From assembly GCA_004524535.1 (NCBI GenBank), contig SDNY01000026.1:1-37170 (forward strand): a stretch of 37,170 nt of DNA, given 5' to 3'. The notes below the pieces were generated by a model that ran no database searches, was not told the DNA's origin, and worked only from the letters and a program-made list of their open reading frames with translations. A program made the position numbers and the translations under genes. This DNA comes from Promethearchaeota archaeon (GTDB lineage: Archaea > Asgardarchaeota > Lokiarchaeia > Sigyniarchaeales > SOKP01). Position 1 is the stretch's first letter, and each line of letters begins with the position of its first letter. Below, piece after piece: positions 419 through 25,479 of the stretch.

Positions 419-1450
419 ATGAAGGAAATTAATTTCATAACTATAGGTGATAAGAATTTCTTTCCTCTCATTCATTTTTCTATAAAGCAAGTGTTAAAAT
501 TTTATCCCACCTCAAAATTATTTATCTATGATTGGGGCTTTACACCCTCTCAAAAAAAAAAGATTAATACCTATCCAAATACGGTCTTAATCGATTGGAC
601 TGACAAATTAGATAGAGAATATGGCTATAAAACGATAAGAAAACCTTATGCAGGGAAAGTTTCCCGAAGAGTTTATAAAATAAAAAGAGATTATCTCCTT
701 AATCAAAAACCTTTCTGTATGTTGGATTGTGCGAAAAGAATTAAGGAAAATTTAATTTTTTTTGATGGAGATGCTATATTAATAAATCCTATTGATGAAA
801 TATTTGAAAATAATTACGACATAGGTTTAACTATTTCAGCAAAACTTCTTATTGAACGTCAAAATTATAGATGGATATGGAGCGTTAATTCAGGAGTCAT
901 TTTTTTTAAATTAAATTCTAAACCAATGCAAATATTTATTCAAGAATGGATAAATGAAATTAAAACATATAAAGGAGTTTTTATAATGGAACAAACCGCT
1001 TTATTTAATTTGATAACAAAGAGAAATAGAAAAATATTATATAAAGAATATAATATTGGAATAATAAAATTAGCTAATTTAGAATATAGAATTAAAACTT
1101 TTCCTACTAGTATATACAACTACATACAGATTGGGAAATGGTATAATGATAAAGAAGTTAAATTTTTGCATTTTATATTAATGAAACATTATAATCCAAA
1201 AAATCCAAGTAAATCCATCAAAATTAGATATTTTATTCGAGAAATGAAAATACGTTATGCTATTCATCATATTTTAAAATTAATATTGCCAATTCTATCA
1301 TCAAAAATAAAAAATAAAATTAGAGAGAATCTTAAATCTATTTTTAAGTTTAAACTATTAGTAAGACCATTTAATTTTAAATTGATCATATTGATTTTTT
1401 ACTCTATTATTCTAAATATTAAAAAAAAAAAAGCCAAAAAAGTTAATTGA
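419..1450 (+). CDS. Glycosyltransferase-like protein, paralog 1 of 4
   Basis: Probable nucleotide-sugar-dependent glycosyltransferase of GT-A fold (GT8/nucleotide-diphospho-sugar-transferase-like) acting in surface glycan synthesis; donor and acceptor are unknown. Seen: an N-terminal strand FITIGDKNFF (residues 6-15), a DxD metal/nucleotide motif FFDGD (114-118) followed by INPIDEIF, a conserved NSGVIFFKLNSKPMQIF block (157-173), an EQ pair (191-192) and a KFLHF motif. These match the order of motifs in GT-A retaining enzymes. The ATG at 419 aligns with the starts of the three paralogs at 2507, 7456 and 8608. The C-terminus ends in a hydrophobic stretch (LIILIFYSIILN) and a Lys-rich tail that could attach it to the membrane. 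A run of 10 A lies at codons 45-48. Fold assignment is by motif only. Confidence 0.7.
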   Translation: MKEINFITIGDKNFFPLIHFSIKQVLKFYPTSKLFIYDWGFTPSQKKKINTYPNTVLIDWTDKLDREYGYKTIRKPYAGKVSRRVYKIKRDYLLNQKPFCMLDCAKRIKENLIFFDGDAILINPIDEIFENNYDIGLTISAKLLIERQNYRWIWSVNSGVIFFKLNSKPMQIFIQEWINEIKTYKGVFIMEQTALFNLITKRNRKILYKEYNIGIIKLANLEYRIKTFPTSIYNYIQIGKWYNDKEVKFLHFILMKHYNPKNPSKSIKIRYFIREMKIRYAIHHILKLILPILSSKIKNKIRENLKSIFKFKLLVRPFNFKLIILIFYSIILNIKKKKAKKVN

Positions 1451-1503
1451 ATGCAATCTATTTGTAGAATTGTTATTAATTATTTTAATAAAAGTATAAA
1501 ACT

Positions 1504-2376
1504 TTAAGAGTTGGGTGATTTAGTCTCTCTTATTGCTTTTTTATAAAGATAAAGATCACTATCTAATCCACACGGACAAAACTCAAAAGGACATCGGCTT
1601 ATATTATCATTGAATCTAATTTTTTCATATACATTTCCTATTTTTTTTTTTAAATAAGCACAACCAAATAAATCTCCTTTAGGATCAGCAAAAACAACGT
1701 CATATCCACCATGACAAAAATTACCTTTTTGGTAATACATAGCAATCTGTTTTTTATTTATACCAAAAACCTTAAGTTCTTTCTCAGTGTAGGAAGCAGG
1801 ATAGATTTTACCTTTGTATTTTCCAACGAAGGGCATAAATTCTAATGAAATTCCTTTTTTTTTAAAAAATTTCTTGTATTTTTTAACTTCATTAATAATA
1901 TGAGGATCTGCTACTTCAACTGCTTTTATATTGAATCCATTTTTTTTAAGTTTATGAAAATTACTTATATATTTATCCAACAATTTATGTTTTTCTAATT
2001 CTTTTATATGCAACGATGCATTAATCAGAGATACTCTTTCAGGATTTATCTTCTCGACAAATTCCTTAACTTTTTCAGAGGTTAAATTAGTAAAAATAGA
2101 AACAAAGTGATTTTTTGTTAGTTCACTACACGCTTCAATAATATTTGGAATTAAAAATGGTTCCCCTCCCCCTAAATCTATTTTGAAAATTTTATTTGTT
2201 TCACTAAGAGTTTTTTGGAGAGCAGAAATATCTATTTTTGAGATTTTTTTAGAGATAAGACCTTTATTTATAAGAAAATCCTGAAAACAATAGGAGCAAT
2301 TTAAATTACAATTATATGAAAGAATCCAAACTAATCCAGCATCATAATTTTGATTTTCCTTCGGTAGATCATTCAT
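1504..2376 (-). CDS. Radical SAM protein with SPASM-like cysteine-rich C-terminus
   Basis: Binds a [4Fe-4S] cluster and S-adenosylmethionine to start radical chemistry; the substrate is unknown. Seen: the radical SAM motif CxxxCxxC (Cys23, Cys27, Cys30), a GGGEP-type segment (residues 69-73) that contacts SAM in this family, and a C-terminal group of cysteines (221, 239, 262, 267, 269) resembling a SPASM or twitch domain holding auxiliary clusters. At 290 residues it is short for a full SPASM enzyme. It sits on the opposite strand between two glycosyltransferase-like paralogs, diverging from the one at 2507. Context suggests modification of a sugar, a small peptide or a surface polymer. A sulfatase-maturing role was considered, but the neighbouring sulfatase-fold proteins lack the usual target motif. 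Confidence 0.8.
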   Translation of the reverse strand: MNDLPKENQNYDAGLVWILSYNCNLNCSYCFQDFLINKGLISKKISKIDISALQKTLSETNKIFKIDLGGGEPFLIPNIIEACSELTKNHFVSIFTNLTSEKVKEFVEKINPERVSLINASLHIKELEKHKLLDKYISNFHKLKKNGFNIKAVEVADPHIINEVKKYKKFFKKKGISLEFMPFVGKYKGKIYPASYTEKELKVFGINKKQIAMYYQKGNFCHGGYDVVFADPKGDLFGCAYLKKKIGNVYEKIRFNDNISRCPFEFCPCGLDSDLYLYKKAIRETKSPNS

Positions 2377-2506
2377 ATAAACATTTGGTAAAATTTAATT
2401 GATAAAATAGCTTATGCTTTAATAGATTGTAGAAATTTTTAAAGTAATACTTAATAAATTTATTATTAATAATATTTAATAACTTACCAATTTGATCTTT
2501 TCTTTA

Positions 2507-3460
2507 ATGAGAGAAATAAATTTCATAACAATCGGAGATAAGAATTTCTTTCCTTTCATTAATGTTTCAATAAAACAAGTATTAAAAATTTATCCAACCT
2601 CAAAATTTTTTATCTATGATTGGGGCTTTACACCCTCTCAAAAAAAAAAAATTAATACTTATTCTAATACGATCTTAATCGACTGGGCTGATAAATTAGA
2701 TAGAGAACATGGGTATAAAAAAATAAAAAAAACGTACTATAGGGATACGCTTATAAAGATTCAAAGAAAAATGGAATATCTCTATAATCAAAAACCGTTT
2801 TGTATATTGGATTGTGCTAAGAGAATTAGAGAAAATTTAATCTTTTTTGATGGTGATGTAATATTAATAAATCCTATTGATGAAATATTTGAAGATAATT
2901 ACGATATAGGTTTAACTGTTCGCTTTCGTAAAAATATTTTGAAAGGGCTTTCCAATTTGAAATGGGGAATTAATTCAGGTGTAATTTTTTTTAAATTAAA
3001 TTCTAAACCAATGCAGATATTTATTCAAGAATGGATAAATGAAATTAATACAAGTGATCTACTTTTAATGGAACAAACTTCTTTGGTTACACTAATAAAA
3101 GATAGAAATAAGGAGATATTTAATAATAATTCTAATTCAGGGATCATAAAAATATCTGATACAGAATTTAAAATTAAAGCTTTTCCTATTCCGATTTACA
3201 ATTTTTATAGAATTATTGAGGGATATAATGATAAAAAAGTAAAAATTTTGCATTTTAACACAATAAAATATTATAATCCAAATTTAAGTAAATCCCTCAT
3301 AATTAGGGACTATATTCGACAAATTAAAATAAGTTATCCTTTTTTTCAAATTTTAAAATTAGTTTCACCAATTCTATCACCAAAAATTTATAGTAAAATT
3401 AGGAGAAGTTTTAAATCTTTTTTAATATATAGGAAAAAAAAAAGGATTTACTCCTTTTAA
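2507..3460 (+). CDS. Glycosyltransferase-like protein, paralog 2 of 4
   Basis: Same family and presumed role as the gene at 419. Conserved blocks seen: FITIGDKNFF at the N-terminus, FFDGD motif, INPIDEIFEDNYDIGLTV, NSGVIFFKLNSKPMQIF, a MEQT segment and a KILHF motif. I place the start at the ATG at 2507 (protein MREINF...), which aligns with the other paralogs; an in-frame TTG at 2492 would add five residues and is less likely. The segment after DIGLTV (RFRKNILKGLSNLK) is unlike the other copies. The protein ends RKKKRIYSF, and A-runs occur both here and at codons 45-48 (12 A, 2640-2651). A decayed piece of a further copy follows about 30 bp downstream. Confidence 0.7.
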   Translation: MREINFITIGDKNFFPFINVSIKQVLKIYPTSKFFIYDWGFTPSQKKKINTYSNTILIDWADKLDREHGYKKIKKTYYRDTLIKIQRKMEYLYNQKPFCILDCAKRIRENLIFFDGDVILINPIDEIFEDNYDIGLTVRFRKNILKGLSNLKWGINSGVIFFKLNSKPMQIFIQEWINEINTSDLLLMEQTSLVTLIKDRNKEIFNNNSNSGIIKISDTEFKIKAFPIPIYNFYRIIEGYNDKKVKILHFNTIKYYNPNLSKSLIIRDYIRQIKISYPFFQILKLVSPILSPKIYSKIRRSFKSFLIYRKKKRIYSF

Positions 3461-3491
3461 AATAAAAACAATATGTTCTCATTCAAACATA

Positions 3492-3602
3492 AGCTTAATC
3501 GATTGGACTGGCAAACTAGATAAAGAAATTGGGTACAAATCGATAAGATATACACATGATACGGATAACTGCGTAAGGTTTCTATGAAAAATGCAATATC
3601 CA
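3492..3602 (+). pseudogene. Remnant of a fifth glycosyltransferase-like paralog
   Basis: Reading from 3492, the DNA translates to SLIDWTGKLDKEIGYKSIRY..., then THDTDNCV, then a stop codon TGA at about 3585, then KMQYP. This lines up with residues 56-95 of the intact paralogs, LIDWTDKLDREHGYKTIRYTHDMENRV, and is closest to the copies at 7456 and 8608, not to the adjacent copy at 2507. No catalytic DxD part follows. It is therefore a truncated, stop-containing remnant left by an earlier duplication or recombination. Its end is marked by two perfect tandem copies of a 10-bp unit (CCAATCTTCA, 3600-3619). Confidence 0.85.
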
Positions 3603-3793
3603 ATCTTCACCAATCTTCAAAAATGTTTATATATTTAATCTTTTTATTCCAAATGATTGGTTTTTCTTTTTGATATATTTTCAAATAATTACCATTCGAT
3701 ATATTTGATTAGAATTTAATTAAACTTAAAATCTAAAATAAATGTAATCCATTATAATAATATGTATTTTACTAAGGATTATTTTTCAAGATC
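3603..3793. other. AT-rich spacer upstream of sulfatase-fold gene
   Basis: Together with the remnant before it this makes a 333-bp stretch without an intact gene. It contains a two-copy 10-bp tandem repeat (3600-3619), two similar GATATATTT words, and A/T-rich DNA expected to hold the promoter of the gene at 3794. No RNA gene or hairpin terminator was recognised. Confidence 0.4.
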
Positions 3794-4747
3794 ATGGATT
3801 TAATAAATGCCATTAAAGAACATAACACATTATTTGATTTATATTACCTATTAGTAAGAAAATTCGCTAAAACATTTTTGTTCAGAAAAAATTATGGTTT
3901 TTATATCCTTGATGAAGATTGGGATAATTTAATTATTTTAGATGCTTGTAGATACGATATTTTTAGAAAACTCTACTTAAAAAGAAAAATTAAAGGACAA
4001 CTTTTTAAAAAGATATCGAGAGGGGCACATACCATTGAATATCTATTAGAAAATTTTAAGAATAAGAAATATGATGATATCGTATATCTTACGTCCACAC
4101 CGTACGTAAATATGTACTGTAAAAATAATTTTCACAAAATAATCTCAGTTTGGAAATATGGTTGGGACCCACATTTTCTTACTGTTACTCCTGAATCGAT
4201 GTTCGATTATGCTCTGGAAGCCCTTATTAACTATCCTAACAAAAGGTTAATTATCCATTTCATGCAACCCCATTTTCCCTATATAGGTTATTCTATAAAA
4301 GATCTAAGGAGCAATATTAGAGAAAAAATGAAAAAAAAAGTTAATAAGAATGATGGAATATATTTTTTAGACAAAAAATTTAAAAAATCTCTATTTTCAT
4401 TATATACACTAAGGATCTTTGCTTTATTGAAAGATGTGTTTCAAATTAAAGCATATATAAAGAATCTAACATTAGTTCTACCTTTTGTTGAAAAACTTAT
4501 AGAAATCTTACCTGGTAAGACAGCAGTTTCTACAGATCATGGAGAATCTTTTGGAGAAAAAATGCATAATTTATTCCCAATTAAATTTTATGGTCATGAT
4601 ATGAATATTAGAATACCCTCATTAGTTGAAATTCCTTGGCTTTTAGTCAAACCTGAAGAAAAAGATGTTAACTTTAAGAAAGAATTTTTTAAAATTGCGA
4701 TTGAAAGAGAAAAGTTGAAAAAACTAATATCAAAAGTAAAAATATAA
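3794..4747 (+). CDS. Alkaline-phosphatase/sulfatase-fold protein, paralog A
   Basis: Metal-dependent hydrolase or phosphotransferase of the alkaline phosphatase superfamily, of the kind common in archaeal surface-polysaccharide clusters; substrate unknown. Seen: WDNLIILDACRYD (residues 43-55) giving the first metal Asp50, a conserved GAHTIEYLL with Thr80 at the position expected for the nucleophile, MQPHFPYIG with His160, a DHGESFG block with Asp248 and His249, and YGHD with His268. This is the normal order of metal ligands in the superfamily. The CxPxR motif used by formylglycine sulfatases is absent, so a Thr-based phospho- or sulfo-transfer reaction is more likely. The last codon is one base from the sulfotransferase-like gene, so the two are probably co-transcribed. 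Its paralog follows at 5492. Confidence 0.75.
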   Translation: MDLINAIKEHNTLFDLYYLLVRKFAKTFLFRKNYGFYILDEDWDNLIILDACRYDIFRKLYLKRKIKGQLFKKISRGAHTIEYLLENFKNKKYDDIVYLTSTPYVNMYCKNNFHKIISVWKYGWDPHFLTVTPESMFDYALEALINYPNKRLIIHFMQPHFPYIGYSIKDLRSNIREKMKKKVNKNDGIYFLDKKFKKSLFSLYTLRIFALLKDVFQIKAYIKNLTLVLPFVEKLIEILPGKTAVSTDHGESFGEKMHNLFPIKFYGHDMNIRIPSLVEIPWLLVKPEEKDVNFKKEFFKIAIEREKLKKLISKVKI

Positions 4748-4748
4748 G

Positions 4749-5450
4749 GTGAATTTAATAAATTCTAAGGAAAAAAATCCATATTTCTTTATGGTAAGTT
4801 TACCAAGTTCCGGTTCAACACTTATGGCTTACATTTTAAATTCAAATTCCAAAGTTTATGTTAAGCATGAAGATAATGCTAGGCCAAAATATCTTTCCAA
4901 TTTATATAATCTTCAGTGGAAAATTTCACAAGGATTTCAAAAATATTTAAATTCGTTTTTAATTCAAAAAGAATATTTAGTAACAAGCAGATACAACCAT
5001 AAAAAGCAAATTTTTTTAATTAATAGCGCTTTAGATAAAAAGGCAAAATACATCATTCTGACAAGAAGGTTTATGTGGAGACTTTTTTATAGAATGAAAG
5101 GTTTGCCTTTTATACTCCCTATTAAAAATTTAGTAAGATTCTTTATATGTAAGCATTACGTAATAAATAATTTTGATTATATAAAAGTAAGTTATAATGA
5201 TATGGTCTCAAAACCATTAAAGACTTTTTCAAATATTTGTAAATTCATTGGTGTAGATTTTGAGCCTGAAATGTTAAATTATCAAAAATTTGGGGATAAG
5301 ACGCGAGGTAATCCTAAAGTTTGGAAATATCAAGGAATTATTGATAAATCTGCTAATGAGAGATTAAATATGAAAATGGTTCTTTCCACAATAAAATTTA
5401 GATTATATATTTTTAAAAAAAAAATTTTAGAACATCTAGGTAATGATTGA
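4749..5450 (+). CDS. Sulfotransferase-like protein
   Basis: Likely transfers a sulfuryl group from PAPS to a glycan or lipid. Seen: the 5'-phosphosulfate loop-like sequence VSLPSSGSTLMAYIL (residues 16-30), which matches the PxSGST pattern of P-loop sulfotransferases. An ILTRR segment near residue 103 fits the 3'-phosphate-binding strand, and the C-terminal FxKFGDKTRGNPKVW-type region resembles the domain end in this family. At 233 residues it is slightly short. The start is a GTG one base after the stop of the gene at 3794. It lies between two paralogous sulfatase-fold proteins, which suggests that the three act on the same sulfated or phosphorylated surface polymer. Donor specificity cannot be judged from the sequence. 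Confidence 0.7.
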   Translation: MNLINSKEKNPYFFMVSLPSSGSTLMAYILNSNSKVYVKHEDNARPKYLSNLYNLQWKISQGFQKYLNSFLIQKEYLVTSRYNHKKQIFLINSALDKKAKYIILTRRFMWRLFYRMKGLPFILPIKNLVRFFICKHYVINNFDYIKVSYNDMVSKPLKTFSNICKFIGVDFEPEMLNYQKFGDKTRGNPKVWKYQGIIDKSANERLNMKMVLSTIKFRLYIFKKKILEHLGND

Positions 5451-5491
5451 TTAATTAATTTTAAATAGAGTTGGGGAAATATCACTAAAAA

Positions 5492-6490
5492 ATGATTTCC
5501 AAGATCATTCATATTATAAAAAAAATTAAAGCCGCTGACAATCCATTTGATTCATATTATATATTTTTAAGAAAAATAATTAATTTGATCCTCTATAGAA
5601 ATAATAAAGGCTCTAATTTTCTGGATAAAGAGTGGGATAATTTAATTATCTTAGATGGTTGTAGATACGATTTTTTTAAAATCCTACATTTAAAAAGAAA
5701 AGTTAAAGGTACACTTCATAAAATGTTATCTATAGGGACTCATACCATTGAATTCCTTTTAAAAAGTTTTAGAAAAAAAAAATATGATGATATAGTATAT
5801 CTCACTTCCACTCCATATGTCGACATGTATTGTAAAACTAAATTTCATAAGATAATTTCAGTATGGAAGAATGGATGGGATCCTCAATATTTTACCGTTT
5901 TACCAGAAACTATGTATTATTACGCAATTGAATCGCTAATTAATTACCCTAATAAAAGATTGATTATCCACTTTATGCAACCTCATTTTCCCTATATAGG
6001 ATATTCCAGAGATGATTTAAAGGAGAATTTTAAAGAAAATATTAAAAAAAAGATTCAAATAAATAATCCAATAGATTTTTACAATACAAATTTCAAAAAA
6101 AGTCCATTTTCAATATATGCAATTAGGCTATTTCGTTTATTGAAAAATGATTTTCAAATAAAAGGTTATATTAAAAATTTAAAATTAGTAATGCCTTTTG
6201 TAGAAAGACTTATTGAAATATTACCAGGCACCACGATTGTCACTGCAGATCATGGAGAAGCCTTTGGTGATAAAATACATACTCTGCTCCCAATTAAATT
6301 TTACGGACATGATTTTAATATTAGAATTCCTCCATTGGTAAATATCCCTTGGCTTTTAATTAAATCTGAAGAAAAAGATGTTAAAGCTAAAAATGAATTG
6401 ATAAAAATTAAAGTTGAAAGAGGAAAGTTAAATAAAGCTATCAATAAACTATTGATAAAGGATAAATCCCAAAAAAGATCAAAAAATTAA
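5492..6490 (+). CDS. Alkaline-phosphatase/sulfatase-fold protein, paralog B
   Basis: Paralog of the gene at 3794, with the same motif order: WDNLIILDGCRYD (metal Asp55), IGTHTIEFLL (candidate nucleophile Thr85), MQPHFPYIGYS, TADHGEAFGDK and YGHDFNIRIPPLVNIPWLL. Most of the length aligns without large gaps, and differences gather in the middle (after IGYS) and at the ends. The C-terminus adds a Lys-rich tail. The ATG at 5492 lies 41 bp after the sulfotransferase-like gene, so the three genes probably form one unit. The duplication with a sulfotransferase between the copies points to two related substrates or two steps on one polymer. As with the first copy, a formylglycine sulfatase motif is missing. 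Confidence 0.75.
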   Translation: MISKIIHIIKKIKAADNPFDSYYIFLRKIINLILYRNNKGSNFLDKEWDNLIILDGCRYDFFKILHLKRKVKGTLHKMLSIGTHTIEFLLKSFRKKKYDDIVYLTSTPYVDMYCKTKFHKIISVWKNGWDPQYFTVLPETMYYYAIESLINYPNKRLIIHFMQPHFPYIGYSRDDLKENFKENIKKKIQINNPIDFYNTNFKKSPFSIYAIRLFRLLKNDFQIKGYIKNLKLVMPFVERLIEILPGTTIVTADHGEAFGDKIHTLLPIKFYGHDFNIRIPPLVNIPWLLIKSEEKDVKAKNELIKIKVERGKLNKAINKLLIKDKSQKRSKN

Positions 6491-6555
6491 CAATAATGCC
6501 AAAGAATTCAATTAATGGCTTTTCTTATCCAGTTTCTACTTATGTTTAAAAAAAT

Positions 6556-7368
6556 CTAAGGTTTTATTAAAAATTCATAAGCCCTTTCAAGAGTTATAGC
6601 ATTTAAGGGAAAAAAATTTTGATAATTCAACTTTTTTAATAAATTAAAGCATTTATGTTTTAATTCCTTTGAATGAGTTGATAAAAGAATTATTGGTTTG
6701 TATTTTAGAAGAAAATTTTTTCCTCCTTTAAGCACCAAATATTCTGCACCCTCAACATCTATTTTAATAATTCTTGGAGATACATTGGATTTTTCAATAA
6801 ATTCATCTAAAGAAATAGTTAAGGTAAGATAATTTCCTTTGTCTACTAGTTTAAAGCTTGCTTCTTTTTTTGGTGTATCCATCCATTTAATTTCTTTTGA
6901 ATTTGAAATAGCACATGGTACGATTAAAACATTTTTTATCTTATTTAATTGAATAGTCTCGTATAAATATTTAATATTGCGAGGTATTGGTTCAAATGCA
7001 TATACAAACTTTGAATATTTAGCAAAAAGAAGGGTATATAAACCAACATTCGCACCAATATCAAAACATATTATCTTTTTATTCATAAATTTTAATGCTG
7101 CATTCACAATTTCTGGTTCACATGAGTTAAATATAACAGATAATCCTTTACCAGATCCAGGATAAGCACCTGCAATCCATTTAAACTTCCGTAATGGACC
7201 TTTTAAGACAGGAACCGGAGTACCAGACGGTATAAATCTAATAACTAACAATACCAATTTAGATAAAAAATATTTTACCCCCATTATAAGATAATTTAAT
7301 CTCAAATTTTTATATTTTTTAGAACTTTTACGTTTTAACCATGTTTTTCTAAAATCTATATCAGTCAA
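6556..7368 (-). CDS. FkbM-family SAM-dependent methyltransferase (copy 1)
   Basis: Predicted O-methyltransferase, probably acting on sugars of surface glycans. Seen: SAM-binding motif I FDIGANVGLY (residues 102-111), the acidic end of strand 2 in AFEPIPRN (Glu126), and the FkbM signature KIDVEGAEYLVLKGG (202-216). A hydrophobic stretch near residues 33-47 (YFLSKLVLLVIRFIP) precedes the catalytic domain and may associate with the membrane. It diverges from the glycosyltransferase-like gene at 7456 across an 87-bp spacer. The first ~20 codons and this spacer are copied again at 8474-8607, so the gene marks one breakpoint of a tandem duplication. Confidence 0.85.
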   Translation of the reverse strand: MTDIDFRKTWLKRKSSKKYKNLRLNYLIMGVKYFLSKLVLLVIRFIPSGTPVPVLKGPLRKFKWIAGAYPGSGKGLSVIFNSCEPEIVNAALKFMNKKIICFDIGANVGLYTLLFAKYSKFVYAFEPIPRNIKYLYETIQLNKIKNVLIVPCAISNSKEIKWMDTPKKEASFKLVDKGNYLTLTISLDEFIEKSNVSPRIIKIDVEGAEYLVLKGGKNFLLKYKPIILLSTHSKELKHKCFNLLKKLNYQNFFPLNAITLERAYEFLIKP

Positions 7369-8473
7369 ATTGAAACATAAAATTTTTATTTCGATTAATT
7401 TAATATTTTAATAACATTGAAAATAAAAGATTTTTGATTATTTTACGCATCTTAAATGAATGAAATCAATTTTATAACAATTGGAGATAAAGATTTTTTT
7501 CCTCTCATTCATTTTTCCATAAAGCAAGTGTTAAAATTTTACCCAACATCAAAATTATTTATCTATGATTGGGGCTTTACACTATATCAAAAAAAAAAAA
7601 TTAGTACTTTTCCTAATACAATCTTAATCGATTGGACTGACAAACTAGATAAAGAAAATGGTTACAAAACGATAAGATATACTAATGATATGGAAAACCG
7701 CGTAGGGATTTCAAGAAAAAGGGAATATTTCCTTAATCAAAAACCGTTTTGTATGTTGGATTGTGCTAAGAGAATTAAAGAAAATTTAATCTTTTTTGAT
7801 GGAGACGCTATATTAATAAATCCTATTGATGAAATATTGGAAGATAATTACGACATTGGTTTAACTGTTAATGTAGAATTTGCAGCTAAACATAAACATA
7901 ATTCTATAGGGCCTCGTAGTTGGATAAAGGGAATTAATTCAGGTATTATTTTTTTTAAATTAAATTCTAAACCAATGCAAATATTTATTCAAGAATGGAT
8001 AAATGAAATTAAAACGTATAAAGGAGTTATTATGATAGAACAAAACTCTTTATTTAATATAATAGTCAAGAGAAATAGAGAAATATTATATAAGGAGTAC
8101 AATATTGGAATAATAAAATTAGCTAATTTAGAATATAGGATCAAGATTTTTCCTACCAGACTTTACAACTATCTGCAGATTGGAGTACGCTATAATGATA
8201 AAAAAGTTAAATTTTTACATCTTGTATCAATGAGACGTCATTATCCAAAAAATCTAAGTAAATCCCTCATAATTAGAGACTATATTCGAGAAATGAAAAT
8301 ACGTATGGCTTTTAATCACTTTTTAAGAGCATTTTCATTAATTCTATTACCAAAAATTAAGAAAAAAATTATAGTAAGCTTTAATAAATTTTTGATATAT
8401 AGGAAAAAAAAGAAAAAAAAAAGGAATTACTCCTTCTCAAAGAAAATTTAATCCAAAATTATTAGATTTTTTT
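7322..8473 (+). repeat. Tandem segmental duplication, unit 1 (1,152 bp)
   Basis: Unit 1 starts inside the 5' end of the FkbM gene, includes the divergent spacer and the whole glycosyltransferase-like gene 7456-8451. The next unit starts 1,152 bp later with the same content. Over the 134 bp from 7322 to 7455 the two units align without gaps and differ at 6 positions by my count (about 95% identity). Confidence 0.9.
7456..8451 (+). CDS. Glycosyltransferase-like protein, paralog 3 of 4
   Basis: Same family as the gene at 419. Seen: FITIGDKDFF (6-15), FFDGD (113-117) then INPIDEIL, NSGIIFFKLNSKPMQIF (161-177), IEQNS and KFLHL. Residues 141-155 form a variable window, EFAAKHKHNSIGPRS, that differs at 12 of 15 positions from the tandem neighbour at 8608, although the first 60 residues of the two differ at only 4. 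The DNA has a 12-A run at 7589-7600 (codons 45-48) and two A-runs near the 3' end (8 A at 8404-8411, 10 A at 8413-8422) that encode a Lys-rich tail ending RNYSFSKKI. Divergent to the FkbM gene. Likely acceptor or donor preference differs between copies. Confidence 0.7.
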   Translation: MNEINFITIGDKDFFPLIHFSIKQVLKFYPTSKLFIYDWGFTLYQKKKISTFPNTILIDWTDKLDKENGYKTIRYTNDMENRVGISRKREYFLNQKPFCMLDCAKRIKENLIFFDGDAILINPIDEILEDNYDIGLTVNVEFAAKHKHNSIGPRSWIKGINSGIIFFKLNSKPMQIFIQEWINEIKTYKGVIMIEQNSLFNIIVKRNREILYKEYNIGIIKLANLEYRIKIFPTRLYNYLQIGVRYNDKKVKFLHLVSMRRHYPKNLSKSLIIRDYIREMKIRMAFNHFLRAFSLILLPKIKKKIIVSFNKFLIYRKKKKKKRNYSFSKKI

Positions 8474-8607
8474 GAACTTTTACTTTTTAACCATTTTTTT
8501 CTAAAATCTATAGCAGTCAAATTGAAACATAAAATTTTTATTTCGATTAAGTTAATATTTTAATAACCTTGAAAATATAAGATTTTTGATTATTTTACGC
8601 ATCTTAA
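8474..8607 (-). pseudogene. Duplicated 5' fragment of the FkbM gene plus its divergent spacer
   Basis: This stretch is a second copy of 7322-7455. On the minus strand it reads LTAIDFRKKWLKSKSSKK, matching the FkbM N-terminus MTDIDFRKTWLKRKSSKK, and then continues into unrelated sequence at the duplication junction (about 8470). The start codon has become TTG and the catalytic domain is absent, so it is a non-functional leftover. It likely still serves as the promoter region of the glycosyltransferase-like gene at 8608. Confidence 0.85.
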
Positions 8608-9606
8608 ATGAATGAAATAAATTTTATAACAATTGGAGATAAAGATTTTTTTCCTCTCATTCATTTTTCCATAAAGCAAGTGTTAAAATTTTATCCAACC
8701 TCAAAATTATTTATCTATGATTGGGGCTTTACACCCTCTCAAAAAAAAAAAATTAATACCTATCCAAATACGATCTTAATCGATTGGACTGACAAATTAG
8801 ATAGAGAACATGGTTACAAAACGATAAGATATACACACGATATGGAAAACCGCGTAGGACTTCCGAGAAAAAGGGAATATATCCTTAACCAAAAACCTAT
8901 CTGTATTTTGGATTGTGCTAAGAGAATTAAAGAAAATTTAATCTTTTTTGATGGAGATGCTATATTAATAAATCCTATTGATGAAATATTTGAAGATAAT
9001 TACGATATAGGTTTAACTGTTAATGTAAATTTTTTAATTCTATATAAATATATTCCCAAGGGGACTTTTGGTTGGATGAAGGGAGTTAATTCAGCTATAA
9101 TTTTTTTTAAATTAAATTCTAAACCAATGCAAATATTTATTCAAGAATGGATAAAAGAAATGAACCAACAAAACGTAATATTAATGGAACAAACCTCTTT
9201 ATTTAATTTGATAAGAAAAAGAAATAAAGAACTATTATATAAGGAATATAATATTGGAATAATAAAATTAGCTAATTTAAAATATAGGATCAAGATTTTC
9301 CCTAGCAGTATATACAATTATACATTTTTTGGGCGACGATATAATGATAAAAAAGTTAAATTTTTGCATTTTATATCAATGAAACGTCATTATCCAAAAA
9401 ATCTAAGAACCTCTCTTATAATTAGAGCCTATATTCGAGAAATTAAAATACGTTATGCTTTTTCTCACATTTTAAAATTAGTCTCACCACTTCTATCACC
9501 AAAAATTAATAAAAATATTAGAAGAAGCTTCAATAAATTTTTAATATATAGGAAAAAAAAAAAAAAAGAAAAAAAAGATTTACTTCTTCTCAAAGAAAAA
9601 CAATAG
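8608..9606 (+). CDS. Glycosyltransferase-like protein, paralog 4 of 4
   Basis: Tandem copy of the gene at 7456, same motif order: FITIGDKDFF, FFDGD, INPIDEIFEDNYDIGLTV, FFKLNSKPMQIF, MEQTS and KFLHF. The usual NSG before the FFK block is NSA here, a change in an otherwise constant position. The variable window reads NFLILYKYIPKGTFG. A 12-A run lies at 8741-8752. Near the 3' end a 14-A run (9553-9566) and an 8-A run (9568-9575) precede a tail DLLLLKEKQ. That tail is a different reading frame from the RxYSF tails of copies 2 and 3, so the poly(A) tract appears to have changed length and switched frame. The stop lies 5 bp from the convergent gene at 9612. Confidence 0.7.
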   Translation: MNEINFITIGDKDFFPLIHFSIKQVLKFYPTSKLFIYDWGFTPSQKKKINTYPNTILIDWTDKLDREHGYKTIRYTHDMENRVGLPRKREYILNQKPICILDCAKRIKENLIFFDGDAILINPIDEIFEDNYDIGLTVNVNFLILYKYIPKGTFGWMKGVNSAIIFFKLNSKPMQIFIQEWIKEMNQQNVILMEQTSLFNLIRKRNKELLYKEYNIGIIKLANLKYRIKIFPSSIYNYTFFGRRYNDKKVKFLHFISMKRHYPKNLRTSLIIRAYIREIKIRYAFSHILKLVSPLLSPKINKNIRRSFNKFLIYRKKKKKEKKDLLLLKEKQ

Positions 9607-9611
9607 GTTCT

Positions 9612-11126
9612 TTATGGAAATTTGATTTCTCCATAATTTTGAGTAAATAATAATTTAAAAATTTGAAATAAGTTCAATTTAAAAAAAATAGAAAAATGAT
9701 AATAATCATAAAATAATTTTAAAATATTTTTAATTTTAGCCTTTAAACCTTTTGAGTAAAAAATAATTTTAAAATACTTCCCTAATACGATATCTAAATA
9801 ATAATTTTTGAAGAAAATTCTGGATTTAATTAATCGCTCTAAGGATATCTTTAATTGTAACAATTTTTTATCAGAAAGCTCACTAAAATTCACTGTTAGT
9901 GATTGATGACGATCAAAATTCTCATTTTTAAATGATTTAATCAGTTTTAACTCATTTTTTATTAGTCCATTTTTCTTAGCATATTCATAAATTTCAGTTT
10001 TTGGAAATGGTATTGGCAAAAAAAAGAAGAAGCTCTTTAAAAAACTTATAGGTTGATAAAATTCTTTAATAAACCTATAGGTTTCCATTGCAGTCCGGTA
10101 ATTTTCTCCTTGATTTCCAATGATAAAAGAACACATTGGTAACATTCTATATTTTTTACATAGGAGTAGAGCATTTTTTGCCTGTTCTACTGTCGTTTGT
10201 TTTTTTATATTATTTAAAATAGTTTGGTTCCCCGATTCTATGCCAAATTGTAAAGCAAAACAACCACATTCTTTCATTCTTTTAATCAATTCTTCATCAA
10301 TAACGGAAACTCTGGAAGACGCAGTCCATTTAACTTTTAAATTTTCTTTCTCAAGAGCATCACAAAAATCTAATACAAACTTCTTATTCAATGTAAAATT
10401 ATCATCAACAATATAAATTGAACTATTTTTATATTTTTGCTGTATTAATTTTATTTCTTTTATAATTCTTTCAGTAGAATGTCTTCTCACCTTATATCCT
10501 TTGTAATAGTGGTAGCAAAACGTGCAATGGAATGGACATCCTCTTGTTGTGCATAAGGGATAATATCTTAGCTTCATATATGCTTTCATATTATATAAAT
10601 GTATAGCGGGTATTGGGATCGAATCAAGATTTTCAATGGGATTTCTATCTTTAGTTTTAATAATTTGGCCATTTTTCTTAAAATAAATACCATCAATAGA
10701 AGAATAATCTGTATCATTTTCAATTTTTTTTTTAGTTATGTCTTTAATTGTAAACTCTCCTTCTCCTAAAACTGCAATATCCACCTTAGAGGTGCTTAAT
10801 AATATTTCAGGGATACTAGAGGCAACGCTACCCCCCGCTACTATTAACGAATTTGGATGATATTTTTTTATTATTTTACTTAAGAATACAGTATAATCGT
10901 AAGCAACAATCATACATCCTATTCCATACACATCGTATTTTGTTCTTTTTAATATTTTTTTAACTTTCCTTTTTTTATATCTATTTAAATTTAGATCTAA
11001 AATTTTAACCTTATGGCCTTCCTCTAATAAACTAGCTCCGATATATGCTAATCCTAAATTTAGCAACACCACTGATGTAGGTGGATTTATTAATAAGATT
11101 TTCAATTTTGTGAGATCTGAATTCAT
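9612..11126 (-). CDS. B12-binding-domain radical SAM protein
   Basis: Class B-type radical SAM enzyme with an N-terminal cobalamin-binding domain, able in principle to methylate or rearrange an unactivated carbon; the substrate is unknown. Seen: the N-terminal KILLINPPTSVVLLNLGLAYIGA typical of this class (residues 9-31), a Rossmann-like region with VAGGSVASSIPEILL and VLGEGEFT (97-126), then the radical SAM motif CTTRGCPFHCTFC with cluster cysteines 197, 201 and 204, and a TIM-barrel part with FGIESGN and CSFIIGNQGE. The DxHxxG motif of methionine-synthase-type domains is absent, as is normal here. 504 residues is a usual length. The C-terminal 100 residues are Lys/Phe/Tyr-rich and unassigned. 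It diverges from the flavoprotein gene at 11274. Confidence 0.85.
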   Translation of the reverse strand: MNSDLTKLKILLINPPTSVVLLNLGLAYIGASLLEEGHKVKILDLNLNRYKKRKVKKILKRTKYDVYGIGCMIVAYDYTVFLSKIIKKYHPNSLIVAGGSVASSIPEILLSTSKVDIAVLGEGEFTIKDITKKKIENDTDYSSIDGIYFKKNGQIIKTKDRNPIENLDSIPIPAIHLYNMKAYMKLRYYPLCTTRGCPFHCTFCYHYYKGYKVRRHSTERIIKEIKLIQQKYKNSSIYIVDDNFTLNKKFVLDFCDALEKENLKVKWTASSRVSVIDEELIKRMKECGCFALQFGIESGNQTILNNIKKQTTVEQAKNALLLCKKYRMLPMCSFIIGNQGENYRTAMETYRFIKEFYQPISFLKSFFFFLPIPFPKTEIYEYAKKNGLIKNELKLIKSFKNENFDRHQSLTVNFSELSDKKLLQLKISLERLIKSRIFFKNYYLDIVLGKYFKIIFYSKGLKAKIKNILKLFYDYYHFSIFFKLNLFQIFKLLFTQNYGEIKFP

Positions 11127-12775: not shown

Positions 12776-13861
12776 CTATTGAGCCCCTTTTATTGGATAT
12801 TGACCATATTTTTCTATAGCTTTTGGAATTGCTAACACATTTGGAATTGGAACTCCCCAAGGCAAACAACAGATTGGACTTACTATATATCTTCCTCCTG
12901 GAGCTAAATTTATTATATTTTCTCTAACTTTTTCCTCTACATCTTGAGGGGTACCCGTAAATAATTCACGACTAACATCAATATTTGCTCCCATTATGGT
13001 AACCTTTGGAAAATCCTTCTTAAAATCAATCCAATACTTAATATTTAAAGGATGGGAACCATTTACAGCTATAAAATCTATCTCATTACAAACTTCCCTA
13101 AAATATGGTCTGGTTCCACAATTATGGAGAAAAAATGGTGAATTAATTTTTTTTTGAAATCTTTTGATAAATTGCCCCTCATATTTCATGGCATCCTTAA
13201 AAGACATCATATGCTTATTGAAAGCATAGCCTGTATACATTATAATAGCACTCTCTCCTACTTTTTCAATCCAATCATTATATGAATCTAATTGGCTTTC
13301 ATAAATTTTTTCGCATAATTTCAATAATAGATCAGGATTCTTTCGAATATCTTTAAATGCATTTATTCCTCTTAATTCTTGAACAACGGACCAAATTCCT
13401 AGACCCATAGCTTGGGGAAATTTCGTTTTTTCTCGAATAATATTTGCAGTTTTGTATGTTGTATCCCATAAATCTATTTTTGAGTGTTCTGGAATTTCTA
13501 ACTTTTCAATATCTTCTTCAGTTTTGCACACTTCGCCCTGTTTAATTGCTAAAGGTTTATAATCATACCACTGGATGGAATTCATTTTATTGTTTGCTTC
13601 AGCAAACGCATATGCTTCTGCTGGTCCAGCATAGGCAGAAGGGATTTGAATGGTATCTGCTTTAATAAACTCAGCTGTCTTAATAAGACAATTAGCATAA
13701 GTTTCTGGAGAACTCAAAATTTCTCTTGTTGTGATTCCTATAATCCGAGAAATAAATTGTTCATCAATGATAGCAAAAAATGGGACTCTATCAACACCTC
13801 TAATTCGACCAGTTAAAGTTTTCATAAATCTAAAAACCGATTTTGTCCAATCATAGGGCAT
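12776..13861 (-). CDS. UroD-fold methyltransferase, MtaA/MtbA-like
   Basis: Probable methylcobamide-dependent methyltransferase of the uroporphyrinogen-decarboxylase fold, moving a methyl group between a corrinoid protein and a thiol or pterin acceptor. Seen: a zinc-type HxC pair FLHNCG (His246, Cys248) and a late cysteine in SPICCLPWGVP (Cys331/332), which together fit the His-x-Cys-x(n)-Cys zinc site of MtaA/MtbA. It is the third gene of a minus-strand operon after two corrinoid proteins, with a 6-bp gap and its Shine-Dalgarno AGAGGT inside the upstream gene's last codons. This gene order supports a direct partnership. Acceptor (coenzyme M or tetrahydropterin) cannot be told from the sequence. 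Confidence 0.8.
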   Translation of the reverse strand: MPYDWTKSVFRFMKTLTGRIRGVDRVPFFAIIDEQFISRIIGITTREILSSPETYANCLIKTAEFIKADTIQIPSAYAGPAEAYAFAEANNKMNSIQWYDYKPLAIKQGEVCKTEEDIEKLEIPEHSKIDLWDTTYKTANIIREKTKFPQAMGLGIWSVVQELRGINAFKDIRKNPDLLLKLCEKIYESQLDSYNDWIEKVGESAIIMYTGYAFNKHMMSFKDAMKYEGQFIKRFQKKINSPFFLHNCGTRPYFREVCNEIDFIAVNGSHPLNIKYWIDFKKDFPKVTIMGANIDVSRELFTGTPQDVEEKVRENIINLAPGGRYIVSPICCLPWGVPIPNVLAIPKAIEKYGQYPIKGAQ

Positions 13862-13867
13862 TTTATA

Positions 13868-14521
13868 TCAACCTCTTTTAGTATCTGATATTATTTTATT
13901 TATTTTTTTAATACCTACCCATCCATCTTTCGCACAATCATCTGCTCCAATCATAGCGCAAGAATTTTTAGAGACTACTCCCCCTCCTATGATAATTTTA
14001 GAAGGAATTTCCTCTTTTCTGAGTAATAGGATGGTTTCATGCATTTTTGAAATACTCATTGTGAGTAAACCACTTAGTCCTATAACATCAGGTTTAAACT
14101 CTTTCGCTTTTTCAACAAAAATTTCAGGAGGAACATCTGATCCTAAATCAATGACATCAAATGCTTGACCATTTAAAAGTGACACTATTAATGATTTCCC
14201 AATATCGTGTATATCTCCTTCTACTGTTCCAATTAATATACTCCCTTTAGAAGCCCCCTCCGATATCTCTATAAATGAATCCTTTAATATATTCATAGCA
14301 GCATTAAGAGCATCTCCAGCCATTAACATATCCGCAAGGAAATATTCCTCTTGTTCATATAATTCTCCAACTTTTATAGCCCCTTTTATTATTGCTCCGT
14401 TCAAAATATCTTTATAATCCACTCCTTTTTTTAATGCTTCATTTACGGCATCGATTGTTTTTTCTGATTCTCCTTCTACAATCGAATTTTTTATCCTCGT
14501 TAGTATTTCTTCGTTTTTCAT
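13868..14521 (-). CDS. Corrinoid (B12-binding) methyltransferase protein, copy 2
   Basis: Small corrinoid carrier of the MtaC/MtbC/MtmC type: it holds a cobamide whose cobalt is methylated and demethylated by partner methyltransferases. Seen: an N-terminal helical cap domain (residues 1-90, with GELYEQEEYFLADMLMAGDA), then the B12 domain with the lower-ligand motif DIHDIG (Asp103, His105, Gly108), followed by VIDLGSDVPPE and GLSGLLTMS segments. Its 217 residues are typical. It lies between the copy at 14608 and the MtaA-like gene, on one strand with an 86-bp gap upstream. The conserved His105 indicates base-off/His-on binding. Differences from copy 1 suggest a different partner or substrate. 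Confidence 0.9.
   Translation of the reverse strand: MKNEEILTRIKNSIVEGESEKTIDAVNEALKKGVDYKDILNGAIIKGAIKVGELYEQEEYFLADMLMAGDALNAAMNILKDSFIEISEGASKGSILIGTVEGDIHDIGKSLIVSLLNGQAFDVIDLGSDVPPEIFVEKAKEFKPDVIGLSGLLTMSISKMHETILLLRKEEIPSKIIIGGGVVSKNSCAMIGADDCAKDGWVGIKKINKIISDTKRG
13871..13876 (-). promoter_or_regulatory. Shine-Dalgarno of the MtaA-like gene
   Basis: On the minus strand AGAGGT lies 9 nt before the ATG at 13861 and overlaps the last Arg-Gly codons of the corrinoid gene. This supports the start and translational coupling of the two genes. Confidence 0.6.
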
Positions 14522-14607
14522 AGTTTACTCATTTTTTACATCTTAATAATAATCATTTTATAAAAAGATAATAATTAATGCACATAGTTTTAATATGGAT
14601 AAATCAG

Positions 14608-15243
14608 TTAGATTCCGGTTAAATTTTTTATATGAGTGATACCTTTTATTGTGTCTTCGGCAAAATCATCCGCTCCAAACCGCTTTGCTAAATCCATGCT
14701 TAAAGGAGCCCCACCAACAATTAACTTAACCTTATCTCTTAATCCTGCAGTTTTTAGAGCTTCATGAACAACCTCAATTTGCGACACAGTCATACTTAAG
14801 AGCGAACTTAACCCAACAATAGATGCACCTGTTTCTTTTACTTTAGCGACAATCGTTTCAGCATCCACATCCTTACCTAAATCATATACTTCAAAACCTT
14901 CACTCATTAATAATATTCCGAGTAAGTTTTTCCCTATATCATGATTATCTCCTTTAACAGTTGCGATAACCACCTTAACCTTGTCTTTCACTTTTTCTGA
15001 TGAAGCTAATTCTGGCTTTAAAACTTCTAAGGCAACCTTCATAGTCTCTGCTGCTAGCATTAAGTCTGCTAAATAATAAATCTCTTCGGCATAACGGTGG
15101 CCAACTTCATCCATCCCGGCCGTAAGTGCAGATAAGATATCAAAGGGATCTTTTTTATCAGCTTCAAGAGCCTCTTTTACCGCATCAGCAATATCATCTA
15201 GTTCTAATTCAACAATAAGTTCAGTCAATTGTTCATAATCCAT
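14608..15243 (-). CDS. Corrinoid (B12-binding) methyltransferase protein, copy 1
   Basis: Corrinoid carrier protein, first gene of the minus-strand operon. Seen: acidic N-terminal cap domain (residues 1-80, with AEEIYYLADLMLAAETM), B12 lower-ligand motif DNHDIG (Asp99, His101, Gly104), and the GLSSLLSMTVSQ and GGAPLSMDLAKRFGADDFAED segments that line the cobamide site. Unlike copy 2 it has Asp-Asn-His and an intact C-terminal GADD-AED region. The ATG at 15243 is followed by codons matching the family start. The 131-bp spacer to 15375 is a divergent promoter region between this operon and the two UroD-fold genes, which are likely its functional partners. Confidence 0.9.
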   Translation of the reverse strand: MDYEQLTELIVELELDDIADAVKEALEADKKDPFDILSALTAGMDEVGHRYAEEIYYLADLMLAAETMKVALEVLKPELASSEKVKDKVKVVIATVKGDNHDIGKNLLGILLMSEGFEVYDLGKDVDAETIVAKVKETGASIVGLSSLLSMTVSQIEVVHEALKTAGLRDKVKLIVGGAPLSMDLAKRFGADDFAEDTIKGITHIKNLTGI

Positions 15244-15374
15244 AATATAAAACCAAAATTTTTGATAATATTATATATTAGATGTAAATGTATTTTTAAT
15301 TATTTTTTTTTCGAATTTAAGAAAAATGATGATATTTTAAAAATTTTTTTAAATTAATTAAACCGATCTTTATT

Positions 15375-16559
15375 ATGGTATTATCAAAGCGGGAAAGAGT
15401 TATTAGAACCTTAGAGCTTGAAGAGCCTGACATAGTACCTATTCATTATTTGGGATTTGAAAGGACGGGAATTTCAAATCAATATTTTGAAAAATCTGAT
15501 GAATATAAGAAAACTAAAGCTTCTATAGAAGAAGAAGTTTTAAAAATAAAATTCAGTGTATTACAGGGAACAACAGGAAGTATAACCGAATTAAGGTTTT
15601 GGAAGTCAGACATTCATGGGATAGATCCCTGGGGACTTAATAAATTCAAATTAAAAACAATCAAAGCTCCCCCTGAATATCCTGATTGTCTAATCTTAAC
15701 CTATGATGGAAGAATATGGAAACTTGCCCCCCAAGTTGATACTGGTTTAACATATTTATGGTATGAAGATGGTTATTTTAGGACTCCTGAAATTGTTCAT
15801 GAATATTGGGATAAATATGGTAAACCTATTGATCTTGTTAATAATAGAATTAATTATTCTCCTCAAATTTGGGAAAACTTTGTAAATACACTTTCCAAGT
15901 ATTTATATCCAATGGCTACTTTACCTATTACTTTACATGAATCGCTATTTGAGGGAATGACCATAACGAGAGTAGCTTATTATATGCGAAAAAATCCCCA
16001 ATTTATACATGAGGTTATGACTGAGTTTAATAAAGTTAACTTGGAAATAATTAAGAGGTTAGCAGAGGCAGGAGTCGATATAGTGTTTTATATGGATGAT
16101 TTAGGCATGAAACAACGATCCATTCTTTCCATCGAACAATTTAAGGAATTTATACTTCCTTATTATAAAAAGATCTATCAGGCGTGTAAGAAAAACAGTA
16201 TGTTTGTAGTTCAGCATTCTTGTGGGTATATTGACAAGCTTTTACCATATATGGTTGATGCGGGATTAAATGGAATTCAAGCTCTCGAACCGGCAGCAGG
16301 TGTCGATCTGGCGCATTTAAAAGAAAAATTGGGGGATCGAGTTGCTTTTCTTGGTGGTATAGATGGTTCAAATATACTCAACTTCGGAACCCCCAAAGAT
16401 GTTGAGGAAGAAGTGAAAAGATGCATTAAAGTAGCAGCCCATAGTGGAGGATATTTCGCTGGTCCAAGCCACAATATTCTCAATGCACCATGGGAAAATA
16501 TTTTAGCATTAAGAGCTGCTATTGAAAAATATCGTAAATATCCCTTAAATCTAAATTGA
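15375..16559 (+). CDS. UroD-fold methyltransferase paralog A (no late Zn cysteine)
   Basis: Member of the uroporphyrinogen-decarboxylase/methyltransferase superfamily, likely a corrinoid-dependent methyltransferase and not a haem-pathway enzyme given its context. Seen: N-terminal SKRERVIRTLE (4-14), a middle FEGMTITRVAYYMRKNPQFIHEVM region, HSCG with His281 and Cys283, QALEPAAGVDLAHLKEKLGD (302-321), and FAGPSHNIL (361-369). The HxC pair is present but the late cysteine of MtaA/MtbA is replaced by a Ser-His-Asn. The zinc site is therefore different or absent. It diverges from the corrinoid operon and is followed after 82 bp by its paralog. No MtaB, MttB or MtmB is nearby, so these two may be the substrate-facing methyltransferases. 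Confidence 0.8.
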   Translation: MVLSKRERVIRTLELEEPDIVPIHYLGFERTGISNQYFEKSDEYKKTKASIEEEVLKIKFSVLQGTTGSITELRFWKSDIHGIDPWGLNKFKLKTIKAPPEYPDCLILTYDGRIWKLAPQVDTGLTYLWYEDGYFRTPEIVHEYWDKYGKPIDLVNNRINYSPQIWENFVNTLSKYLYPMATLPITLHESLFEGMTITRVAYYMRKNPQFIHEVMTEFNKVNLEIIKRLAEAGVDIVFYMDDLGMKQRSILSIEQFKEFILPYYKKIYQACKKNSMFVVQHSCGYIDKLLPYMVDAGLNGIQALEPAAGVDLAHLKEKLGDRVAFLGGIDGSNILNFGTPKDVEEEVKRCIKVAAHSGGYFAGPSHNILNAPWENILALRAAIEKYRKYPLNLN

Positions 16560-16641
16560 GGGTAAAAAATACTAACAGTAATGTAATTTCTTGAATAATT
16601 ATAGTGAAAACTTTTTTAATCAATAAATTCACTCTTTTATT

Positions 16642-17805
16642 ATGAGCCTATCAAAAAGAGAACGGGTATTTCGGACAGTTGAGCTCGATGGAGAACCTGA
16701 TGTAGTTCCTATTTTTACTTTGGGTTTTGAACGTACTGCAAAATCCTTTTTGGCATATCAAGACTCTGAAGAGAAAAAGGAGTGCGATACTTGGGTTCAA
16801 TCGAAGGCTACAAATATTAAATATTTAATAACAGAACAGCGATTTTGGAATGTAGATGCTAATCCTATGGATCCTTGGGGTTATAACAAAATAAAACAAA
16901 AACTTAGAAAGGCTCCTCCAGAATATCCTGATTGCCGATTAGAAATTATTAGTGGAAGATTATTTAAGAATGTAAAACAAGTTGAAACTGGCTTAGATTA
17001 TTCCTGGTATATTGATGGTTTTTTTACTTCCCCTGAAATTCTGCATTTCTACTGGGATAAATATGGAAGGCCTTCTGAATTAATTAATGACAGATATAAT
17101 TATTCTCCACGAATTTGGGAGGCTTATGTCGAAGCACTTTCACCCTATCTTTATCCTTTGGCACCGCTTGCCATAGCACCTCTCGAAGCTCTTTTTGAAG
17201 GGATGACTATTACAAGGGTTGCCTATCATATGCGAAAAAATCCACACTTTATTCATGAAGTGATGTCGGAATATGCAAAAACTAATGTTGAAATTATTAA
17301 GCGCTTTACCGAAGCGGGAGTAGAAATTGTATGGATGTTTGATGATTTAGGGTATAAAGGTCAGACTATTTTTTCGCTCAAACATTTAAGAGAATTTATT
17401 CTCCCCTATTATAAACAGATATATCAAGCATGTAGAAAACGTGGAATGTTAGTTATACAGCATTCATGTGGAAAAATAGATGAGTTTTTGCCTGATATGG
17501 TTGATGCGGGATTAAATGGCATTCAAGCTCTTGAACCCGCAGCGGGCGTCGATTTAGCACATATAAAAGAAACTTTAGGAGATCGTTTATGCTTACTAGG
17601 GGGATTAGATTCCTCTAGGGTTCTTAATTTTGGAACAGCTAAAGAAGTTGAAGAAGAAGTTAAAAGAGGAATTAAAACAGCCGCTCCAGGCGGGGGATAT
17701 TTTGTTGGTCCAAGTCATAACATTTTAAATATGCCCTGGGAAAATGTTCTTGCAATGAGATCTGCTATTGAAAAGTACCGTAAATATCCTCTAAATTTTG
17801 CTTGA
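16642..17805 (+). CDS. UroD-fold methyltransferase paralog B (no late Zn cysteine)
   Basis: Tandem paralog of the gene at 15375 with the same motifs: SKRERVFRTVEL, LFEGMTITRVAYHMRKNP, QHSCGKID (His274, Cys276), QALEPAAGVDLAHIKETLGD and VGPSHNILNMPWENV (Ser-His-Asn at 358-360). Differences are concentrated in the first third (residues 30-70) and around WMFDDLGYKG versus YMDDLGMKQ, which face the active site in this fold. It is probably in one transcript with the first copy. The pair looks like two versions of one enzyme tuned to related methylated substrates. That reading is inference; the fold and the pair's relatedness are directly visible. Confidence 0.8.
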   Translation: MSLSKRERVFRTVELDGEPDVVPIFTLGFERTAKSFLAYQDSEEKKECDTWVQSKATNIKYLITEQRFWNVDANPMDPWGYNKIKQKLRKAPPEYPDCRLEIISGRLFKNVKQVETGLDYSWYIDGFFTSPEILHFYWDKYGRPSELINDRYNYSPRIWEAYVEALSPYLYPLAPLAIAPLEALFEGMTITRVAYHMRKNPHFIHEVMSEYAKTNVEIIKRFTEAGVEIVWMFDDLGYKGQTIFSLKHLREFILPYYKQIYQACRKRGMLVIQHSCGKIDEFLPDMVDAGLNGIQALEPAAGVDLAHIKETLGDRLCLLGGLDSSRVLNFGTAKEVEEEVKRGIKTAAPGGGYFVGPSHNILNMPWENVLAMRSAIEKYRKYPLNFA

Positions 17806-25477: not shown

Positions 25478-25479
25478 GA

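Follow-up and report, generated by a model that had tools for sequence, protein, structure and literature searches.

The window analysed here is one entire contig (C77; 37,170 nucleotides) of the genome of an uncultured Lokiarchaeon, which is assembled to 3.66 Mb in 198 contigs and is 99% complete. Positions 1–9.6 kb have a GC content of 24%, compared with 32% in the rest of the window, and hold four open reading frames of one glycosyltransferase-like (GT-like) family, all on the plus strand. Copy 1 (W1; 419–1450) encodes 343 aa, including a C-terminal hydrophobic extension shared with S5, a copy in the sister genome LW60_4 (G004; same genus, about 92–98% DNA identity at the locus, copies prefixed S). 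Copy 2 (W2; 2507–3460) is the most divergent and encodes 317 aa from its ATG, the mechanically defined reading frame beginning at 2492. Copy 3 (W3; 7456–8451, 331 aa) is followed by copy 4 (W4; 8608–9606, 332 aa). Protein identity of the other three copies to copy 3 is about 63–78%, one comparison giving 78, 72 and 64%. A preliminary description of this DNA had listed these four frames as intact paralogs, and all were found intact; beyond them and one remnant, no further family copy was found elsewhere in the host genome.

The remnant, which had been described as decayed, is real: it lies at 3444–3599 (plus strand) directly behind a copy-type 3′ tail, corresponds to about residues 41–94, contains a TGA and matches copies 3 and 4 with 76–78% DNA identity. 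The proposed unequal tandem duplication was likewise recovered. The spacer upstream of copy 3 (7265–7455), which overlaps the start region of an FkbM gene, is near-identical to that upstream of copy 4 (8417–8607), and spacer plus gene start (7265–7564 against 8417–8716) match at 92% with a spacing of 1152. A run of 10–12 A residues at a QKKKI motif is present at about 552–567 and at the same place, in the 5′ third, in every array copy; slippage there would abolish the enzyme. Phase variation by these poly-A tracts was considered and rejected, since tract lengths match the expectation from AAA codon usage.

Pfam agrees with the names previously given to the neighbours of the GT-like genes. A radical SAM protein whose role is unassigned by family (1504–2376, minus strand; PF04055, 1.9e-10) separates copies 1 and 2. 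Between the remnant and copy 3 lie sulfatase-fold protein A of the alkaline-phosphatase superfamily (3794–4747, plus; PF00884 at 1.8e-4, just under the family cut-off), a sulfotransferase-like protein (4749–5450, plus; PF13469, 5e-10; PF00685, 2e-5), sulfatase-fold protein B (5492–6490, plus; PF00884 at 5.5e-6, over that cut-off), a paralog of A with about 74% DNA identity, and an FkbM-family methyltransferase (6556–7368, minus; PF05050, 1e-15) with a TTG start, for which a later ATG may be the true start. The right edge of the island is a B12-binding radical SAM protein (9612–11126, minus; PF02310 and PF04055), whose BchE/HpnJ-like matches are all below cut-offs. Further right, at 12776–17805, the translations read as a row of uroporphyrinogen-decarboxylase-like methyltransferases and corrinoid proteins, likely a methyl-transfer cluster adjoining the island. 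An FAD-linked oxidase, a CCG-domain protein and a second FAD-linked oxidase follow one another at 22711–27057 and, as read from their translations, resemble a lactate/glycolate-dehydrogenase-like set; another CCG-type protein lies at 35881–37038.

The GT-like family is an orphan, unnamed in Pfam and NCBIfam. D115 and D117, forming a DxD motif, are invariant in 10 of 10 sequences, haloarchaeal homologs of about 30% identity included; N161, Q196 and H255 likewise do not vary even in these homologs. The order of DxD, a downstream N, a Q and a C-terminal H is the one found in GT-A/GT8-type transferases. GT8 enzymes (GT-A fold; Escherichia coli WaaO/WaaJ) share this order of DxD, N(S)G strand, Q and H, but neither PF01501 nor the WaaO/WaaJ profiles matched the copies significantly. 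Profile comparison with GT8 (hhalign) was weak (E 0.015, probability 3%), although it placed DxD and NSG in register. Sequence searches of Pfam, NCBIfam and PDB (the last with two profiles) returned nothing above threshold, and two AlphaFold predictions from shallow alignments reached a mean pLDDT of 38–39. The assignment thus rests on motifs and genomic context, which make a glycosyltransferase the likely identity of the family.

Clear family matches occur in 3 of 228 Asgard genomes (Loki profile). A broader profile added only marginal short matches across the Asgard genomes, and scanning GTDB with one genome for each species recovered only the same two relatives. Three other members of the genus (G001–G003) gave no GT match, and in G001 different genes occupy the flanking loci. 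Viral contigs contained no relative by tblastn, phage records gave no match and PHROGs gave only chance-level matches. A genome of another Loki genus, G022, has a single copy within a polysaccharide cluster, surrounded by GT1/GT4, GT2, DegT aminotransferase, FdtA, UDP-GlcNAc 2-epimerase and ABC-2 genes. Haloarchaeal homologs adjoin AglB/STT3, O-antigen ligase, LTA-synthase-type, FkbM and dTDP-rhamnose genes. On a Haloarcula halobia plasmid (L066) two places match the family, one of them beside dTDP-rhamnose and nucleotide-sugar genes.

Archaeal agl/AglB-linked N-glycan and O-antigen-like clusters house distant homologs in Salinigranum and on Haloarcula plasmids, and those clusters resemble the island in having FkbM and sulfatase/LTA-synthase-type neighbours. 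In contrast to them, the window has no recognised oligosaccharyltransferase, flippase or nucleotide-sugar synthesis gene, and its GT gene is tandemly amplified. Because the distant homologs lie in such haloarchaeal glycan clusters, a surface-glycan role is likely. The glycan-gene company of the family, with sulfotransferase, FkbM and sulfatase-fold genes here and full polysaccharide or AglB clusters around its homologs, agrees with the surface-glycan association proposed earlier, and the function of the island is likely to be cell-surface glycan decoration. An FkbM gene directly adjoins a family member in three distant lineages, those of the window, G022 and Salinigranum, which suggests that the transferred sugar is O-methylated; the FkbM sites beside family members are at 6556–7368 of the window, L017:10805–11770 and L065:13046–13663.

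The AT-richness of the island relative to its surroundings, the patchy distribution of the family and the occurrence of distant homologs on haloarchaeal plasmids could also reflect a glycan island that was imported recently and remains mobile, each copy having come in by its own horizontal transfer instead of arising through duplication in place. We regard this as very improbable. The copies have spacers and tandem register in common and resemble one another much more closely than they do any outside homolog; neither a tRNA nor a recognisable integrase was found in the window, and in the GTDB species scan no single copy had a close relative in an unrelated archaeon.

Conserved blocks of the copies had been called nearly identical even in DNA. 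This holds for exact shared runs of up to 74 nt and for windows of up to 98% identity, but not for the blocks as a whole: mean paralog dS is already about 0.4–0.5 in the two larger conserved blocks (0.16 in the third), indicating that the contrast between conserved and variable regions is mostly one of protein-level constraint. Homogenisation of the conserved blocks by gene conversion was rejected as the main cause on the same dS values. For the first two variable segments the corresponding mean dS is 0.5–0.9. The dN/dS ratio between paralogs is about 0.13–0.14 in conserved blocks A and B and, over few sites, about 1–1.5 in variable segment 2 and the tail, which is suggestive of relaxed or diversifying selection.

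In the sister genome the order is identical: copy 1 (L014:10722–11750), radical SAM, copy 2, remnant, sulfatase A, sulfotransferase, sulfatase B, copy 3, copy 4, B12-radical SAM. The remnant is common to both genomes (95%) and so predates the species split. Copies 1–4 have 96.3, 98.1, 92.2 and 96.8% DNA identity to their sister orthologs and the neighbours 92.3–98.9%, the highest value being that of the radical SAM gene at 1504–2376; copies 1, 2 and 4 therefore diverge at a rate no higher than that of the metabolic genes beside them. The variable segments of these three copies are nearly unchanged between the species (ortholog dN 0.01–0.04). Fast turnover of variable segments between relatives was not found; only copy 3, whose variable segment 2 in the window is unique, differs, possibly through assembly collapse.

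Gene content does differ: the four copies, the remnant and their order are shared, while FkbM is absent at this site in the sister and extra copies are present there. At 8407–8520 on the minus strand, the spacer upstream of copy 4 codes for a broken stretch that matches the N-terminal 38 residues of the FkbM frame at 55% and is interrupted by one TGA. This FkbM-start remnant is present in both genomes, from which we infer that the ancestral state had FkbM; it may be the trace of a lost second divergent FkbM–GT pair, or the N-terminus of the FkbM frame may itself be spacer. The sister also carries an additional copy and a partial copy at the start of its contig C28, and a methyltransferase–GT module is duplicated (81% DNA identity) between the ends of its contigs C22 and C28 (L014:11650–12816 and L016:1–2400). 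Contamination was considered as a source of C28 and rejected, since the middle of this contig is 88–93% identical to the host genome; C28 belongs to the same organism group. The array probably extends across the sister's C22/C28 assembly gap. The window, too, starts in the spacer behind the methyltransferase of this module. Gain or loss of FkbM and the duplicated module show that the array turns over.

The earlier claim that the copies recombine was borne out by several signals. The PHI test gave P = 0.0005 for all copies, 0.0035 without S3, the most mosaic copy, and 0.001 for W1–W4 with S5 and the G022 copy. Six genome-specific states are common to copies 1 and 4, where 0.35 were expected, and GG at 93–94 is restricted to S1 and S4; the control pair, sulfatase paralogs A and B, has zero genome-specific shared sites. 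The 5′ end of W3 is closer to W4 (98%) than to its own ortholog (94%). This end and the spacer before it resemble those of W4 more than those of S3 yet are not identical to W4's, so they were homogenised and not collapsed in assembly. In a GENECONV-like permutation test S3 and S4 are identical across 63 polymorphic sites (global P < 0.0005): at about 273120–273332 of C22, S3 carries variable segment 2 of S4 within an exact tract of 212 nt that has diverged sequence on both sides. S3 is also identical to S5 over a 105-nt tract.

The S3/S4 tract is confounded by the assembly. The sister contigs have SPAdes-style names, the overlap between the end of C28 and S3 is exactly 55 nt, and on the two sides of the stretch in which W3 differs the tract would leave identical anchors of 59 and 56 nt. 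An assembly graph with k = 55, which these anchors just reach, could merge such a bulge. The tract was accordingly downgraded as proof of recent conversion.

It is possible that recombination has played no meaningful part, and that after old duplication purifying selection simply maintained the core while constraint was relaxed in other parts, the conversion signal being assembly artefact and homoplasy. Besides the confounded S3 tract, this would fit the similar paralog dS of conserved and variable segments and the PHI result when the test is confined to the four window copies (P = 0.54, 37 informative sites), where the absence of signal is probably due to low power. However, it leaves unexplained the PHI signals obtained without S3, the genome-specific states common to copies 1 and 4, and the homogenised W3/W4 spacer and 5′ end, and we consider it unlikely. 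Ectopic recombination between the array copies is likely from the pattern of shared sequence. Efficient gene conversion is known in archaea from Haloferax, where it acts between genome copies (PMC11276520); a literature search turned up no account of recombination among paralogs in GT arrays of archaea.

The preliminary description went further and saw in the locus a surface-diversity generator. An active generator of this kind, in which frequent conversion between copies moves variable cassettes and alters the surface glycan within populations, would account for the S3 tracts shared with S4 and S5 and for the differences in sister gene content, and both assemblies break inside the array. Against it, the sister has the same array, with copies 1, 2 and 4 keeping their variable segments, and such near-stasis of three of four copies argues against a fast surface-variation device at species scale. 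The copies are all intact, each with a separate spacer upstream, and thus do not form a layout of silent cassettes and an expression site; homopolymer runs match the codon-usage expectation, with no excess of slippage tracts. The S3/S4 tract, moreover, could be assembly collapse. We judge an active generator to be improbable, and likewise improbable the more specific proposal that segmental conversion in the tandem GT genes reshuffles acceptor-specificity cassettes and so generates surface-glycan diversity in populations of this Asgard archaeon, for instance as a defence against viruses.

Known variation systems differ from the array in corresponding ways. At the Neisseria lgt locus (lgtA–E, LOS), combinations of adjacent GT genes yield alternative surface glycans (PMC5910500). 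The array likewise has several adjacent GT genes, but lgt switches by repeat-tract phase variation, whereas tract lengths in the array match codon usage, and the likeness is one of gene layout. Recombination between related lgt genes is known in Neisseria. Segmental gene conversion has also been defined in antigenic variation (PMC11276520). As in pilin/VSG-type variation, variable segments of the array lie between conserved blocks, and short tracts may pass from one copy to another; unlike in it, all copies of the array are intact frames rather than silent donors to one expression site, and the product is a putative enzyme instead of the surface antigen itself.

The explanation we favour, and think probable, is a birth-and-death array of acceptor-diversified surface-glycan glycosyltransferases that occasionally recombine ectopically, rather than a device for rapid switching. 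A putative transferase, DxD-bearing and GT-A-like, whose archaeal family is narrowly distributed, underwent repeated tandem duplication, and neighbouring decoration genes (methyltransferases, sulfotransferase and sulfatase-fold proteins) were duplicated along with it. All copies have retained the putative sugar-nucleotide/metal core, while selection would have diversified the tails and short, presumably acceptor-side segments (alignment codons ~73–93, 140–159 and 189–198). With such segments and tails diversified, the copies, if active as transferases, most likely differ in the acceptor, within one glycan, to which they attach sugars; this glycan would lie at the cell surface. Duplication, deletion and occasional ectopic recombination would then slowly reshuffle the array.

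To our knowledge, the ways in which Asgard archaea construct and vary the cell surface, on which virus entry and partner contact depend, are little understood. This locus offers a concrete, testable family whose members, probably surface-glycan transferases, combine conserved cores with divergent segments. We know of no recombinational glycan-variation system in Asgard archaea; if cassettes move within populations, this array would be the first.
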